This document shows, in pieces, positions 39,024-45,548 of a DNA stretch of 64,000 nucleotides; the stretch's first letter is position 1; each line of letters begins with the position of its first letter. Made by a program: the position numbers and the translations under genes. Origin of the DNA: Desulfurella acetivorans A63 (GTDB taxonomy: Bacteria > Campylobacterota_A > Desulfurellia > Desulfurellales > Desulfurellaceae); NCBI GenBank assembly GCA_000517565.1, contig CP007051.1, forward strand, positions 434,001-498,000, given 5' to 3'. The notes beneath the pieces are model-generated. The model did no database searches and was not told where the DNA came from. It worked only from the letters and a program-made list of their open reading frames with translations.

Positions 39024-39051
39024 TTGATTATTTATTTATTTGGTATATAAT
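39024..39051 (+). promoter_or_regulatory. Promoter for DUF5752-treT
   Basis: TTGATT, a 16-base spacer and a perfect TATAAT (39046-39051), ending 24 bases before the ATG. Confidence 0.75.
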
Positions 39052-39074
39052 GTGAAACTGTATTGGAGATGGTT

Positions 39075-39728
39075 ATGGAAAGTAATATTTTACCTTTTGA
39101 GATAAAAGATTGTTCTATTTTATCGATTGCAACAGGCAAACATGCACTTAACACAAAAGAATTATTTACGCAGTTATTGAATATTGATACAGATTCTATT
39201 TACTATCATTTTTGGGGTAAGTTGCTTCGCACATCTTTTAGTACACCCGAATTTAACAATGACTTTGCTCAATGGATAGCAGAACAAATTCATGATAAAG
39301 CTTTAGCAGAAAAGTTATCTGTTTTGCAGCCACAAGATTTTGGTTCTATTGATGATTTGCGTCAGGAGCTACTTGACATTATACAAAATTCTCTAGAACA
39401 AAATACAGTTTTAATGTATACCAACGCCCAGGAGCCTTTTTATTTTTTAAAGCTTGGTATGGTTGTATTTAGTACAACTAAGATAGTAAATGAGCCCAGG
39501 GGTTTTTTAGATGCAATCGATGAATTGTCTTATGGTTCTTTGTACTTTCATTTCATTGATGCAAGAAGAAGAACGCCAAATCATCGTGACGATTTTTCAA
39601 ACTGGATAGCATTGTTTGATGGGTATGAAGAGCTTGTTGATATGATAATTAATATCGATCCGTTTTTTTTGCCATTATCTAAATTAAAAGAAAAGATATC
39701 AAAAATTTTTAATATGTATTTTAAATGA
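39075..39728 (+). CDS. DUF5752 family protein with an internal duplication
   Basis: A 217-residue protein matching, by pattern and context, the DUF5752 family that accompanies trehalose and glucosylglycerol synthases. Two halves look like copies: DSIYYHFWGKLLRTS...NDFAQWIAE near residues 38-75 corresponds to GSLYFHFIDARRRTP...DDFSNWIALF near 152-183, each followed by a helix ending in a PxxF/L turn. I chose ATG 39075, which is 6 bases after GGAG; ATG 39069 and TTG 39063 sit too close. It is 8 bases ahead of treT, suggesting a chaperone or regulatory role for that enzyme. Biochemical function unknown. Confidence 0.8.
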   Translation: MESNILPFEIKDCSILSIATGKHALNTKELFTQLLNIDTDSIYYHFWGKLLRTSFSTPEFNNDFAQWIAEQIHDKALAEKLSVLQPQDFGSIDDLRQELLDIIQNSLEQNTVLMYTNAQEPFYFLKLGMVVFSTTKIVNEPRGFLDAIDELSYGSLYFHFIDARRRTPNHRDDFSNWIALFDGYEELVDMIINIDPFFLPLSKLKEKISKIFNMYFK

Positions 39729-39736
39729 GGATTTAA

Positions 39737-40966
39737 ATGCTTTCCGAATTAGAATCAATAGTAGGTATAAGTGAAATAGATCATCTGGTTAAATTATCAA
39801 GGTTTTTACAAGGAAAAAAAATTGTTCATATAAATTCAACAAAAATTGGTGGTGGTGTGGCAGAATTATTGACAAATATATTGCCGCTAAAACATGAGTT
39901 AGGTCTGGACGCTACATGGGAAATTGTTGTTGGTCAATCCGATTTTTACAAATGTACAAAAATGTTTCATAATTTATTACAAGGAGTTAAAAATCAGATA
40001 GTGCCAGATACACTACTTAAAGTGTATGAACAAACAAATGAAGAAAACGCTCAAAGGTTATATGATTTACTAAATGAAGCAGATTTTGTTTTTATTCATG
40101 ATCCGCAACCAGCAGCATTGATAAAGTTTTTTCCAAACAGAAAAGGAAAGTGGATATGGAGATGCCATATTGATATTTCAAGGCCAAATAGACAGGTATG
40201 GAAGTTTCTTAAGCAATTTGTTATCCATTACGATGCAAGTATTTTTTCATTAGTTGATTTTGCAAGAAGTTTGCCTAATCCTCAATATATAATTGCTCCA
40301 AGCATAAATCCATTAAGTGACAAAAATAAAGATTTAAATAAAGAAGATATAGAAAAGGTCTATACAGAATTTAATATAGACCCTTCAAGACCTGTATTAT
40401 TACAAGTTTCACGCTTTGATAGATTTAAAGATCCAATAGGCGTAATTAGCGCTTACAAGTTGGTAAAAAAATCTATTCCATCTATACAGCTTATTTTGGC
40501 AGGTGGAAGTGCAGATGATGATCCAGAAGGTAGTATTGTATTAGAAGAAACGCTTACTGCTGCAAACTCTGATAAAGATATACATGTTTTGTCATTACCG
40601 CCTGATGCCAATATTACAATTAATGCGCTTCAAAGAGCAGCTGATATTGTTATACAAAAATCAACAAAAGAAGGTTTTGGTTTAACAGTTACAGAATCAT
40701 TGTGGAAAAGTAAACCTGTTATTGGTGGTAACACAGGTGGCATAAGACTTCAGGTTATAGATAACTATAATGGTTTTTTAGTTAATACACCAGAAGGAGC
40801 AGCACTTAGAATCAAACAGCTTTTAAGTGATGATGATTTATTTAAAAGACTTAAAAGAAAAGGCAGAGAGTTTGTAAAAGATAATTTTCTAATTACCAGA
40901 CATGTCAGAGAGTATCTAACTTTACTTGTTATTTTGGAACAGTCTCGTGCAACAGTTGTTTTATGA
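39737..40966 (+). CDS. treT: Trehalose synthase (TreT-type glycosyltransferase)
   Basis: A 409-residue GT4-type glycosyltransferase closest by pattern to TreT, which joins NDP-glucose and glucose to make trehalose. Landmarks: GKKIVHINSTKIGGGVAELL near residue 30, DFVFIHDPQPAALI, WRCHIDISRPNRQVWKF (sugar-acceptor region), LLQVSRFDRFKDPIGVI near 220, and the EX7E-like KSTKEGFGLTVTESLWKSKP near 315. Glucosylglycerate or other trehalose-like synthases share the fold, so the product is inferred. It is co-transcribed with the DUF5752 gene and overlaps the end of convergent otsAB by 6 bases. Confidence 0.88.
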   Translation: MLSELESIVGISEIDHLVKLSRFLQGKKIVHINSTKIGGGVAELLTNILPLKHELGLDATWEIVVGQSDFYKCTKMFHNLLQGVKNQIVPDTLLKVYEQTNEENAQRLYDLLNEADFVFIHDPQPAALIKFFPNRKGKWIWRCHIDISRPNRQVWKFLKQFVIHYDASIFSLVDFARSLPNPQYIIAPSINPLSDKNKDLNKEDIEKVYTEFNIDPSRPVLLQVSRFDRFKDPIGVISAYKLVKKSIPSIQLILAGGSADDDPEGSIVLEETLTAANSDKDIHVLSLPPDANITINALQRAADIVIQKSTKEGFGLTVTESLWKSKPVIGGNTGGIRLQVIDNYNGFLVNTPEGAALRIKQLLSDDDLFKRLKRKGREFVKDNFLITRHVREYLTLLVILEQSRATVVL

Positions 40967-43162
40967 GACAGTAGTATTAATAAGTTTTTCTAATAATTTT
41001 ATTACATGCTGAGGGCTTTTTATATTGTATTTTGCCAGAGTTGAAATTTCACCAACCTTTATTGTAATTGCATTTTCTGGCAAAACTTTAAACATGTCTT
41101 CGTCTGTATAATCATCACCTATTGCAAGCATAAAATCATAGCTTTTTAAGTTAAAAATTTCTGCAACGCAATGTTTGCCTATATTTGCGGGTTTTATCTC
41201 AAGAATTTTATTTCCTTTATGAACCTTAAGGTTTGTATTTGCCACAAAGTTTTGGAGATGACCATTTAATTCGGGTATAAATGTTGACTGAGTTTGAGGA
41301 TCAGTGTTTCTATAGTGAAAAACAATAGAAAATGTTTTATTTTCTATAAAAGAACCTGGCAATCTATCACTGTATAATTTTAAGATATTTATAATTGCAT
41401 TTTTCCAACTTTTGTCAATATTATTTTGATATAACTTCCAATTTGAATTAGGATATTTATAAAAAGCTCCATGTTCTGCTACAATAGCAATGTTTAAGTT
41501 TTCAAACCATTGTTGAAGTGTATCTTTATCTCTGCCACTTACTATTACAATAGTATTATTTTCTTGAGTTAACCGATGTATCAAGTGAATTAATTCTTTT
41601 GTTGGCACAGCCTCTTTAGGTGAATTTACAAAATCTATAAGTGTTCCATCGTAGTCGAGCATTATTAATCTTTTTTTTGCTTTAGCATATTCAGAGATAA
41701 TTTGATTTTCTATTGATTGATTAATGAATTGAGATTCCATTTGTTTTTGCAAAAGAGTGGTTTTATTTAATTCATTTAAATAATCACTAACCCATCTAAA
41801 TACATTGTATCTACTAATGCGCTCCTGCATTTTTTCTATCCTTTGGCTTTGTTCTTCTTTGGACATATCAAGAGCTTTTTTTATAGCTTCACCAATTTCT
41901 TCTATACTGTTTGGGTTAATAATTAAAGCTTCCAATAATTCTTTTGCTGACCCAGCCATTTCACTAAGTATTAAAACACCGTTTTTTTCTTGTTTGCTTG
42001 CAATAAACTCTTTTGCGACAAGATTCATACCATCCCTTAGAGGTGTTACAAGCATTATGTCGCTTGCACTATAAAATGAAACAAGATTTTCAAAATCAAG
42101 TGAGCCAAATTTATATACAATTGGAGTCCATTCAACAGTACTAAATTTTCCATTTATTCGCCCTATTGTTTCATCTATTTGTTTTTTCATTTGTTGATAG
42201 TGGAAAACACCTATTCGTGAAGGTACAACTACAATTATAAGTGTTATACTTTCTCTCCAGGCGGGGTATTTATCTAAAAAATATTCAAAACCAAGCAATC
42301 TATTTAATATTCCTTTTGTATAATCCAAACGATCGACACTAAAGAGTATCTTTTTATTTTTAAATTGGTTTTTTATCTCTTGCGTTTTTGATATAACGCT
42401 GGGACTTTTTGCAGTTTTGCTAAACTTTAAATAGTCAATGCTTATGGGGTGTGTTCCAACTTTTACAAGCCTGCCTTTATTGTTTATAACACCCAGATGA
42501 TTTTCTAAACCTGCAAAGCGTAATGTGGCTCTTAAAAAGTTATCGGTATATTCATGTGTATGAAAACCAATTAAATCAGCACCAAGCAGGCCTTCTATAA
42601 TTTCTATTCTCCACTGAGATGGTAGCAACTGAAAAACTTCATAAGCAGGAAAAGGTATATGCAAGAAAAAACCTATAGCTAAAGTAGGGTAACTTTGTCT
42701 AAGTAAACTAGGCAAGAGCATAAGATGGTAATCGTGTACCCATATTATATCTTCATTTTCATTTATAATATTACTAAGCGCTTTTGCAAATTTTAAATTA
42801 ACAGATTTGTACATATTGTAATATTCTTTTTCAAAACTTGCAATAGTTGGAAAATAGTGAAATAAAGGCCAAATCGTTCTATTGCAAAAACCAAGATAGA
42901 ATTTATCCATTTCTTTTTCCGTAAGAAAAACAGGATAGCAGTGTATATTTTGAAGTGAGTTTGTTATTTCATCTTGCTCTGATTTTATTGTTGTACCTAT
43001 ACCAGGCCAACCTACCCATGTGTAAGAAAGTTCAGTAATTTTTTCAGTGTAGGCTCCAATACTTGTTGCAAGACCACCTGCACTTTTTTGAAATTTATTA
43101 TTATTTTTCTTATCTTTTGTAATGCTTACCGGTAATCTATTTGATACTATAACTATCCTCAT
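40961..43162 (-). CDS. otsA-otsB: Fused trehalose-6-phosphate synthase / phosphatase
   Basis: A 733-residue bifunctional enzyme. Residues ~1-465 are GT20 OtsA: IVIVSNRLPVSI, SAGGLATSIGAY, WVGWPG, IWVHDYHLMLLPSLLRQ, IGFFLHIPFPAYEVFQLLP, VDRLDYTKGILNRLLGFE and LVTPLRDGMNLVAKEF. Residues ~490-733 are a HAD phosphatase OtsB: MLDYDGTLIDF near 503, IVIVSGRDKDTL, and AIGDDYTDEDMF near 685. Together they convert NDP-glucose and glucose-6-phosphate to trehalose. OtsA and OtsB are usually separate in bacteria; this fusion recalls the eukaryotic arrangement but also occurs in scattered bacteria and archaea. It lies directly behind mscS (4-base overlap). Confidence 0.95.
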   Translation of the reverse strand: MRIVIVSNRLPVSITKDKKNNNKFQKSAGGLATSIGAYTEKITELSYTWVGWPGIGTTIKSEQDEITNSLQNIHCYPVFLTEKEMDKFYLGFCNRTIWPLFHYFPTIASFEKEYYNMYKSVNLKFAKALSNIINENEDIIWVHDYHLMLLPSLLRQSYPTLAIGFFLHIPFPAYEVFQLLPSQWRIEIIEGLLGADLIGFHTHEYTDNFLRATLRFAGLENHLGVINNKGRLVKVGTHPISIDYLKFSKTAKSPSVISKTQEIKNQFKNKKILFSVDRLDYTKGILNRLLGFEYFLDKYPAWRESITLIIVVVPSRIGVFHYQQMKKQIDETIGRINGKFSTVEWTPIVYKFGSLDFENLVSFYSASDIMLVTPLRDGMNLVAKEFIASKQEKNGVLILSEMAGSAKELLEALIINPNSIEEIGEAIKKALDMSKEEQSQRIEKMQERISRYNVFRWVSDYLNELNKTTLLQKQMESQFINQSIENQIISEYAKAKKRLIMLDYDGTLIDFVNSPKEAVPTKELIHLIHRLTQENNTIVIVSGRDKDTLQQWFENLNIAIVAEHGAFYKYPNSNWKLYQNNIDKSWKNAIINILKLYSDRLPGSFIENKTFSIVFHYRNTDPQTQSTFIPELNGHLQNFVANTNLKVHKGNKILEIKPANIGKHCVAEIFNLKSYDFMLAIGDDYTDEDMFKVLPENAITIKVGEISTLAKYNIKSPQHVIKLLEKLINTTVS

Positions 43163-44208
43163 TTTTCCTCCAAATAAACAATATTTCTTATTTTTGGTAA
43201 GCTTTGCGGTGCTTCATTTTTTATGTATTCAATAAGTTTTTCTCTAACAAGACATCGTAAATTCCATAAATCAGAAGAGTTTTTTGCACTAACAAGTGCG
43301 CGGACCTGCATAGTTTTGTCATTAGCATCAGTAACTTGAATACCACTTGCAAATTTATCCCAAAGTGGAGTACTGTTTAAAATATCATTTAAAGCTTTTC
43401 TTAACTTTTCAATGTCTATTGAATAATCTAGATATATATACACTGTTCCTAAAAGCTGTGTACTTGTTTTTGTCCAGTTTTGGAATGATTTTTCAACAAA
43501 ATAATTGATAGGTATAACCAATCTTCTTAAATCCCAGATTTTCAGTACTACATAAGTTAATGTAATTTCTTCGACTGTTCCCCATTCTCCTTCTACTATC
43601 AAAACATCTCCTATTTTAATTGGTTGACTGATTGCAATTTGAATGCCTGCAAATAGCAAATTAAGTGTTTTCTGTGCTGCAAATCCAGCAATTATGCCAA
43701 TAATGCCTGCAGATGTTAAAATTGTTGAGCCTAAGCTTTTTAAAGAACTGAAACTTAAAAAAATTAATGCCATACAAATTACTGAAATAATAGCTGTGGT
43801 AATACTTTTTATAATTTTTAGTTGTGTATTTAATTGTCTTTTGTGGAAATCAGCAATATCTTTTGGTTGTTTTTCGTTTAAAATATATTCTAAAAAAGAT
43901 ATTGTTCTAATTGACAATATACCAAAAAATAGAACATATAAAATTTGAATAGTTTTTGTAATAATATAATCGCTGTTTTCCAATTTAAAATTTATTGCAG
44001 AACTAGCTATACTAAATATCAGAATGCTTATTAAAAACCATGAAGGAAAATAAAAATACTTTTTGATTTCATTATGAAGTGGAATTTTTTTTGCAATAAA
44101 TGTATATATTTTACTTATACCTTTAATTAAGATAAAGCCTATAAGGAATGAAAAAATTAATAAACCTAAAATTAATAATTTATCGTTAGCTAAAAAATCA
44201 GTCATCAT
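43159..44208 (-). CDS. MscS-family mechanosensitive channel
   Basis: A 349-residue small-conductance mechanosensitive channel. Four or more N-terminal hydrophobic helices (LLILGLLIFSFLIGFILI; WFLISILIFSIASSAINF; and others) precede the pore helix TM3, SLGSTILTSAGIIGIIAGFAA, and QKTLNLLFAGIQIAIS, followed by the beta domain (PIKIGDVLIVEGEWGTVEEI; IWDLRRLVIPINYFVEKSFQNW), typical of MscS. It releases solutes on hypo-osmotic shock. In one unit with otsAB it couples solute release to trehalose build-up. Two ATGs (44208, 44205) lie almost at the predicted transcription start, with no Shine-Dalgarno, so translation may be leaderless. Confidence 0.93.
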   Translation of the reverse strand: MMTDFLANDKLLILGLLIFSFLIGFILIKGISKIYTFIAKKIPLHNEIKKYFYFPSWFLISILIFSIASSAINFKLENSDYIITKTIQILYVLFFGILSIRTISFLEYILNEKQPKDIADFHKRQLNTQLKIIKSITTAIISVICMALIFLSFSSLKSLGSTILTSAGIIGIIAGFAAQKTLNLLFAGIQIAISQPIKIGDVLIVEGEWGTVEEITLTYVVLKIWDLRRLVIPINYFVEKSFQNWTKTSTQLLGTVYIYLDYSIDIEKLRKALNDILNSTPLWDKFASGIQVTDANDKTMQVRALVSAKNSSDLWNLRCLVREKLIEYIKNEAPQSLPKIRNIVYLEEK

Positions 44209-44212
44209 TTTT

Positions 44213-44240
44213 AGTATATTATATTTATTGATTATGTCAA
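44213..44240 (-). promoter_or_regulatory. Promoter for mscS-otsAB
   Basis: On the minus strand TTGACA (44240-44235), a 16-base spacer and TATACT (44218-44213). Transcription would start within a few bases of the mscS ATG. Confidence 0.7.

Positions 44241-45180: not shown

Positions 45181-45548
<368 letters not shown>

Follow-up and report, generated by a model that had tools for sequence, protein, structure and literature searches.

A possible single trehalose module of OtsAB, an MscS-type channel and an OrfY-associated TreT in Desulfurella acetivorans

The trehalose locus considered here lies in a 64,000-nucleotide stretch of the genome of Desulfurella acetivorans A63 (GCA_000517565.1, CP007051.1, 434,001-498,000), hereafter the window, to whose positions all coordinates refer. 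Between 39063 and 44208 it carries four genes: one for a DUF5752 protein and treT (trehalose glycosyltransferring synthase) on the forward strand, and otsAB and the gene of an MscS-type channel on the reverse strand. We propose, giving it about an even chance, that they form one trehalose osmolyte module in which OtsAB and the channel are joined by TreT with its companion OrfY, the family of DUF5752, and in which the OrfY-TreT pair attaches to whichever pathway of new trehalose synthesis is present. The proposal is carried by gene identities, intact motifs, gene linkage and correlated evolutionary distances, from which we infer the direction of the TreT reaction, contact between OrfY and TreT, gating of the channel and an osmotic role.

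By sequence comparison, DUF5752, which the initial annotation had left uninterpreted, is a member of the OrfY family and tracks TreT. The family (PF19027, 240 bits) is that of Thermoproteus tenax OrfY (PDB 4CSO), which is matched with E 5e-21 by the single sequence and with 3.7e-34 by a profile. The AlphaFold2 model, built with 68 sequences (mean predicted local distance difference test score 90.9), superimposes on 4CSO with a Z score of 21.9 and 2.6 Å over 209 residues. It consists of two repeats, in each of which helices come after a strand of 17 residues, and the residues invariant among the 68 sequences are H45, N62, F64, W67 and E79; S155, H159, A163, R166, D173 and W177. The fold search beyond 4CSO returned no outstanding match (best other Z 4.5), a weak result on which we do not claim a unique fold.

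The tie between the two proteins is visible in their pairwise distances over 59 loci, from which near-duplicate loci (nine names) had been removed. The distances of TreT and DUF5752 correlate with r 0.857, a value reached in none of 999 permutations, as compared with 0.452 for TreT and OtsA and 0.386 for DUF5752 and OtsA; the latter falls to a partial r of -0.002 after allowing for TreT. This ranking is retained in 500 of 500 resamplings and in subsets: with the own genus and the deepest lineage removed, the TreT-DUF5752 and TreT-OtsA values are 0.762 and 0.427, respectively, against 0.950 and 0.773 for loci with fused OtsAB only and 0.716 and 0.238 for loci with separate OtsA only.

Gene order points the same way. 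The wider survey comprises the best 80 of at least 490 DUF5752 relatives from public genomes, chosen by likeness to the query; TreT was called with three TreT queries, and TreY, TreZ, GlgP and trehalase were labelled with exemplar domains and home-made profiles. Four of these loci (L101, L114, L126 and L129) are probably the records G003, G011, G018 and G022 of the phylum sample described below. In all 80 loci treT is the same-strand neighbour of DUF5752, at less than 200 bp in 78 of them and at 204 and 342 bp in the other two, the commonest gap being -4 (32 loci), with -1 in 12. Within 6 kb, 59 loci have otsA, otsB or both and 17 have treY/treZ, 14 of these 17 being without ots genes; neither pathway is present in seven loci, six of them on pieces of at most 8.3 kb. 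MscS-type genes occur within 6 kb in 18 loci, on the same strand in 17. By raw count, mscS is directly upstream of otsA in 14 loci, 13 of which hold a five-gene set of DUF5752, treT, otsB, mscS and otsA. The genes of this set mostly overlap or nearly touch, L060 having extra open reading frames (ORFs) between treT and otsB, and the record titles of the 13 loci include Bacteroidetes, Chlorobiota, Ignavibacteria, Zixibacteria, Deltaproteobacteria and Gammaproteobacteria.

Within the phylum we sampled 25 genomes, counting GT20 when above the Pfam cut-off. GT20 is present in 12 of them and TreT in the identical 12; at E 0.001 GT20 reaches 13 genomes, the thirteenth (G004) and a second match in G011 being under the cut-off. 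In each of the 12, otsA(B) and treT share one locus. The own genus, with three genomes, has mscS-otsAB convergent with treT-DUF5752, three of the same order have otsAB-DUF5752-treT on a single strand, three of another family (L047, L048 and L049) have otsAB-treT without DUF5752, and three of a fourth family have otsA-DUF5752-treT-otsB plus a second DUF5752-treT pair. A one-strand arrangement is found in nine of the 12, including the three with otsA-DUF5752-treT-otsB. All 12 DUF5752 copies adjoin treT, and three of the 15 treT copies are without DUF5752. These three TreTs are only about 41% identical to that of the window, and a tree of 97 sequences, rooted at its midpoint, places the TreT of Pyrococcus horikoshii with them (support 0.855); their genomes offer a natural test of TreT function without OrfY. 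The initial annotation had described two independent routes, probably serving different conditions, and had suggested a survey of co-occurrence in relatives. That survey finds the two routes linked, and since both enzymes occur in the same 12 genomes, in one locus each and on one strand in nine, their independence is doubtful and the earlier claim goes unsupported.

Two further observations concern these arrangements. In the family with two pairs (L050, L052 and L054; L051, L053 and L055), one pair sits inside otsA-DUF5752-treT-otsB and the other is without ots genes, and in L051 genes for an aldehyde:ferredoxin oxidoreductase and an NAD(P)H-oxidoreductase-like protein lie beside the DUF5752-treT pair. 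The idea that a one-strand operon was split up within the order was dropped as unsupported: the window proteins are 63% (TreT), 51% (OtsA) and at most 45% (DUF5752) identical to those of the same order, and 63, 52 and 48% identical to those of other phyla. As the same-order identities are no higher, separate acquisition fits equally well.

The gene names and the two chemistries given by the initial annotation, that of TreT and that of OtsAB through trehalose-6-phosphate, are upheld at the level of sequence by the synthase and phosphatase motifs of OtsAB and by a histidine and a glutamate of TreT. OtsAB carries PF00982 (509 bits) and PF02358 (167 bits), both above the Pfam cut-offs, in a single chain; it passes the bifunctional model NF011071 (968 versus 634 bits) and lies just under the plain OtsA model TIGR02400 (562.8 versus 564.85 bits). 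It retains the trehalose-6-phosphate synthase (TPS) motifs. The trehalose-6-phosphate phosphatase (TPP) motifs DXDX(T/V), SG and (G/S)(D/S)XXX(D/N) are likewise retained, with definitions taken from PMC3634074. TreT (EC 2.4.1.245, family GT4) aligns with the solved TreTs 6ZJ4 (Thermoproteus uzoniensis) and 2X6Q (P. horikoshii) over residues 2-401, and its N-terminal domain PF21269 scores 189 against a cut-off of 27 bits. Its E312, equivalent to Glu326 of P. horikoshii, is conserved as Glu in all 94 sequences longer than 330 residues, and H78, equivalent to His92, to which an acceptor-pocket role is ascribed (PMC4490520), is conserved in at least 97% of sequences. TreT falls under the NCBIfam equivalog NF041139 (405 versus 775 bits), which is named for Thermococcales, so that failing it excludes only that narrow label. 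In the channel protein the MscS beta-domain PF00924 scores 51 bits (cut-off 20) and is preceded by about five hydrophobic stretches, which places it after transmembrane helices. At E 0.001, PF21082 and PF21088 (the C-terminal and TM2/3 MscS domains) are not listed for this protein but are listed for the five survey proteins of the same length class.

The own genome (1.82 Mb, completeness 100) provides a setting for these activities. GalU is above its cut-off, and none of the six nucleoside triphosphate (NTP)-transferase matches, scanned as matched stretches, is a GlgC above cut-off. No match was found in this genome to GH37 trehalase, GH13, GH15 or GH65 (GH57 was not searched); GH13 is the family that would hold TreS, TreY and TreZ. 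TreT may therefore be this genome's way back from trehalose. Without matches to these families, the only evident internal source of free glucose, the acceptor of TreT, is trehalose; GH57, uptake of glucose and glucose-6-phosphatase were outside the search. PF02685 glucokinase has no match in the genome, and a single ROK kinase, scanned as a matched stretch and named firmly by no model, could rephosphorylate glucose freed by TreT.

In the mechanism that we propose, OtsAB would join UDP-glucose, supplied through GalU, with glucose-6-phosphate and remove the phosphate to yield trehalose. The MscS-type channel, encoded just ahead of otsAB, would release solute on down-shock, a fair inference. TreT with OrfY would be a second unit, interconverting trehalose and nucleoside diphosphate (NDP) with NDP-glucose and glucose, and is the best candidate for the recovery of stored trehalose, as well as for trehalose synthesis when free glucose is present. 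OrfY would be a TreT-specific companion, probably regulating it as a subunit and not acting as an enzyme by itself, and the two together may join either pathway of new synthesis, OtsAB or TreYZ.

Several observations weigh against this single module. The correlated distances may partly reflect joint inheritance of neighbours, and OrfY-TreT fusions are absent among the ORFs of the surveyed loci; fusion as proof of contact was for that reason dropped. The occurrence of otsAB-treT without DUF5752 in three of 12 genomes indicates that TreT can function without its companion, and L113, with neither pathway, is not a short piece (14.6 kb). In two cyanobacterial loci (L077 and L120) the OrfY-TreT pair follows TreZ/TreY-like genes together with a trehalase-like gene (by Pfam in L077; profile matches in two of 80 loci), so that TreT is not always the sole way back. 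The direction of the reaction is a further difficulty. The initial annotation called TreT reversible, which is stated for the enzyme of Thermococcus litoralis (PMC1769515), whereas TreT and its pathway in T. tenax are termed unidirectional (PMC3634074); reversibility thus stands for the former, and the direction cannot be assumed for the TreT of the window. In Sulfolobus acidocaldarius, moreover, TreT synthesizes trehalose in vivo (PMC7688234).

The role of OrfY admits a competing explanation that is possible, if on balance unlikely, in which it binds DNA to autoregulate the treT message and makes no contact with TreT. The gene order would fit, as orfY precedes treT and autoregulator genes often precede the gene that they regulate. 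The depositors' title of PDB 4CSO, 'OrfY protein, transcription factor', agrees with it as well. However, DUF5752 proteins are acidic (median isoelectric point 5.17 over 92 sequences, range 4.48-9.22), their distances follow the TreT protein sequence, which those of a regulator need not do, the fold search, weak as its result is, gave no DNA-binding family besides 4CSO itself, and another group terms OrfY-like domains uncharacterised enzymatic (PMC5906684). A bolder form of our own proposal, which we hold only tentatively and consider unlikely as it stands, is that OrfY is no transcription factor but a regulatory subunit, obligate for a distinct branch of TreT. OrfY-TreT would then be a portable trehalose valve that closes the osmolyte cycle in trehalase-free cells, returning the trehalose that OtsAB or TreYZ had made to NDP-glucose and glucose; the invariant residues of the two repeats would form ligand sites that control it.

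Returning to the locus as a whole, we regard it as rather doubtful that it encodes two routes that work independently, each from a promoter of its own and under different conditions, TreT when free glucose is present and OtsAB starting from glucose-6-phosphate. Such a division agrees with the placement of the two arms, in the window's genus, on different strands with a promoter-like site each, and also with S. acidocaldarius, where three routes each contribute to trehalose and TreT activity in vivo is described (PMC7688234), but the identical presence and absence in the 25 genomes, the one-strand order in nine of 12, the company of ots genes in 59 of 80 treT loci and the want of an evident internal source of free glucose argue against it. 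That TreT is instead an activating partner of OtsAB appears improbable. In T. tenax the fused enzyme depends for its synthase activity on a GT4 protein encoded with it (PMC3634074), and in the phylum the fused or split enzyme has a TreT-type GT4 gene linked to it in every case; the T. tenax partner, however, is PimA-like, with TreT a separate pathway in that species (PMC3634074), OrfY-TreT occurs with TreYZ and without ots genes in 14 of 80 loci, and TreT distances track those of OtsA weakly (r 0.24-0.77 by subset). Still less probable is that this branch of TreT makes another glucoside instead of trehalose: the substrates of characterised TreTs extend to galactose, mannose and fructose (PMC4490520), and the window protein scores under the Thermococcales model, but the best solved match is the T. 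uzoniensis TreT (E 6e-127), the equivalents of Glu326 and His92 are retained, and the genes found alongside belong to two different trehalose pathways.

An operon that joins trehalose synthesis with a channel has already been published for T. tenax (msc-gt-tpsp, PMC3634074) and is the sole close match among the matches listed in our literature search on gene clusters for trehalose that combine TreT, OtsA and channels. There, a fused TPSP is co-encoded with an MscS-type channel, and the species also has the TreT pathway and OrfY (4CSO); the window likewise has a channel gene adjoining that of the fused enzyme on one strand. The co-encoded glycosyltransferase of T. tenax is PimA-like and on the same message, whereas in the window no GT4 gene separates the channel gene from otsAB, which overlap directly, and the GT4 gene is treT, placed with the OrfY gene on the other strand and convergent to otsAB. 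The 2013 report holds the msc-gt-tpsp order to be unique to Thermoproteus and Pyrobaculum, with no comparable operon for other TPSP or TPS/TPP genes (PMC3634074). As regards the channel this no longer holds, because gene runs that contain both ots genes and an MscS-type channel gene recur in several bacterial phyla, frequently in the five-gene set that includes OrfY-TreT. With the characterised TreTs (2X6Q and 6ZJ4) the window TreT shares a full-length match and the equivalents of Glu326 and His92, and it differs from them in sitting with OrfY and OtsAB-MscS. S. acidocaldarius is similar in having several trehalose routes per cell, with TreT supported by deletion, and different in that its TPS belongs to family GT4 and that TreY/TreZ are present (PMC7688234); its genome contains a DUF5752 match.

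None of the enzymes is unusual or new; the result of value is the constant pairing of OrfY with TreT and its attachment to OtsAB-MscS or to TreYZ. DUF5752/OrfY, a family without an assigned function, thereby gains a precise hypothesis, namely that it belongs to TreT, and the reason why two trehalose chemistries are kept together becomes accessible to a simple biochemical test. Among the papers searched, none has the term DUF5752 and none names OrfY together with Thermoproteus tenax. Among viral contigs, 29 pattern matches to DUF5752 gave no confirmed case, and plasmids gave no match.

Features of the trehalose locus and their positions in the window
Feature	Position	Strand	Evidence
Promoter-like site TTGATT, 16, TATAAT, 5' of DUF5752-treT	39024..39051	+	10/12 matches
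DUF5752/OrfY-family gene, 217 aa	39075..39728	+	PF19027 240 bits; PDB 4CSO E 5e-21; model vs 4CSO Z 21.9
treT, trehalose glycosyltransferring synthase (GT4), 409 aa	39737..40966	+	PF21269 189 bits; 6ZJ4 E 6e-127; 2X6Q E 5e-109
treT/otsAB 6-base tail overlap TTATGA	40961..40966		both stop codons inside
otsAB, fused GT20 + trehalose phosphatase	40961..43162	-	NF011071 968 vs cut-off 634 bits; TPS + TPP motifs
mscS-type mechanosensitive channel gene, 349 aa	43159..44208	-	PF00924 51 bits; about five hydrophobic stretches ahead of beta-domain
Promoter-like site TTGACA, 16, TATACT, 5' of mscS-otsAB	44213..44240	-	11/12 matches

The meeting of DUF5752-treT with mscS-otsAB in a 6-base overlap, as first described, is borne out by the ORF coordinates, the Pfam cut-offs and the TTATGA at 40961-40966; mscS and otsAB themselves overlap by 4 bases (43159-43162). 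Of the extent originally given, the four genes stand and the start at 39063 does not: it is a TTG inside a likely ribosome-binding site, and the ATG at 39075 is preferred because the sister species L042 has GGAGG there, 5' of the matching ATG. The convergent order is identical in both other searched genomes of the genus (L042 and L043) and is thus not due to chance, while the tails vary, overlapping by 6 bases in L043 and being separated by 1 base in L042. To call the locus an osmoprotection island, as had been done, overstates the case, as only four genes are concerned, the ORFs that flank them look ordinary and the order is that of three genomes of the genus.

Both hexamers of the promoter-like site ahead of DUF5752-treT are conserved across three species of the genus, and of the site ahead of mscS-otsAB the first hexamer is conserved in three species and the second variable. 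The numbers of promoter-like sites (29 observed, 30.0 in shuffles) and terminator-like sites (3 versus 2.0, no enrichment) in the region are those of shuffled sequence, and the scan of the region gave no terminator-like site between the two convergent arms. A weak terminator-like hairpin, of a kind present at chance level, lies inside treT on the otsAB strand (40386-40353, -), so that the otsAB message may extend several hundred bases antisense to treT. Within 44200-44240, the best promoter-like match 5' of mscS stops 5 bases short of the mscS ATG; this spacing would suit a leaderless message, unless the actual start or the promoter lies elsewhere. Next to the locus, past a TPR-like (tetratricopeptide repeat) ORF, is a tmRNA gene (45181-45548, -) with the tag peptide ANSELALAA.

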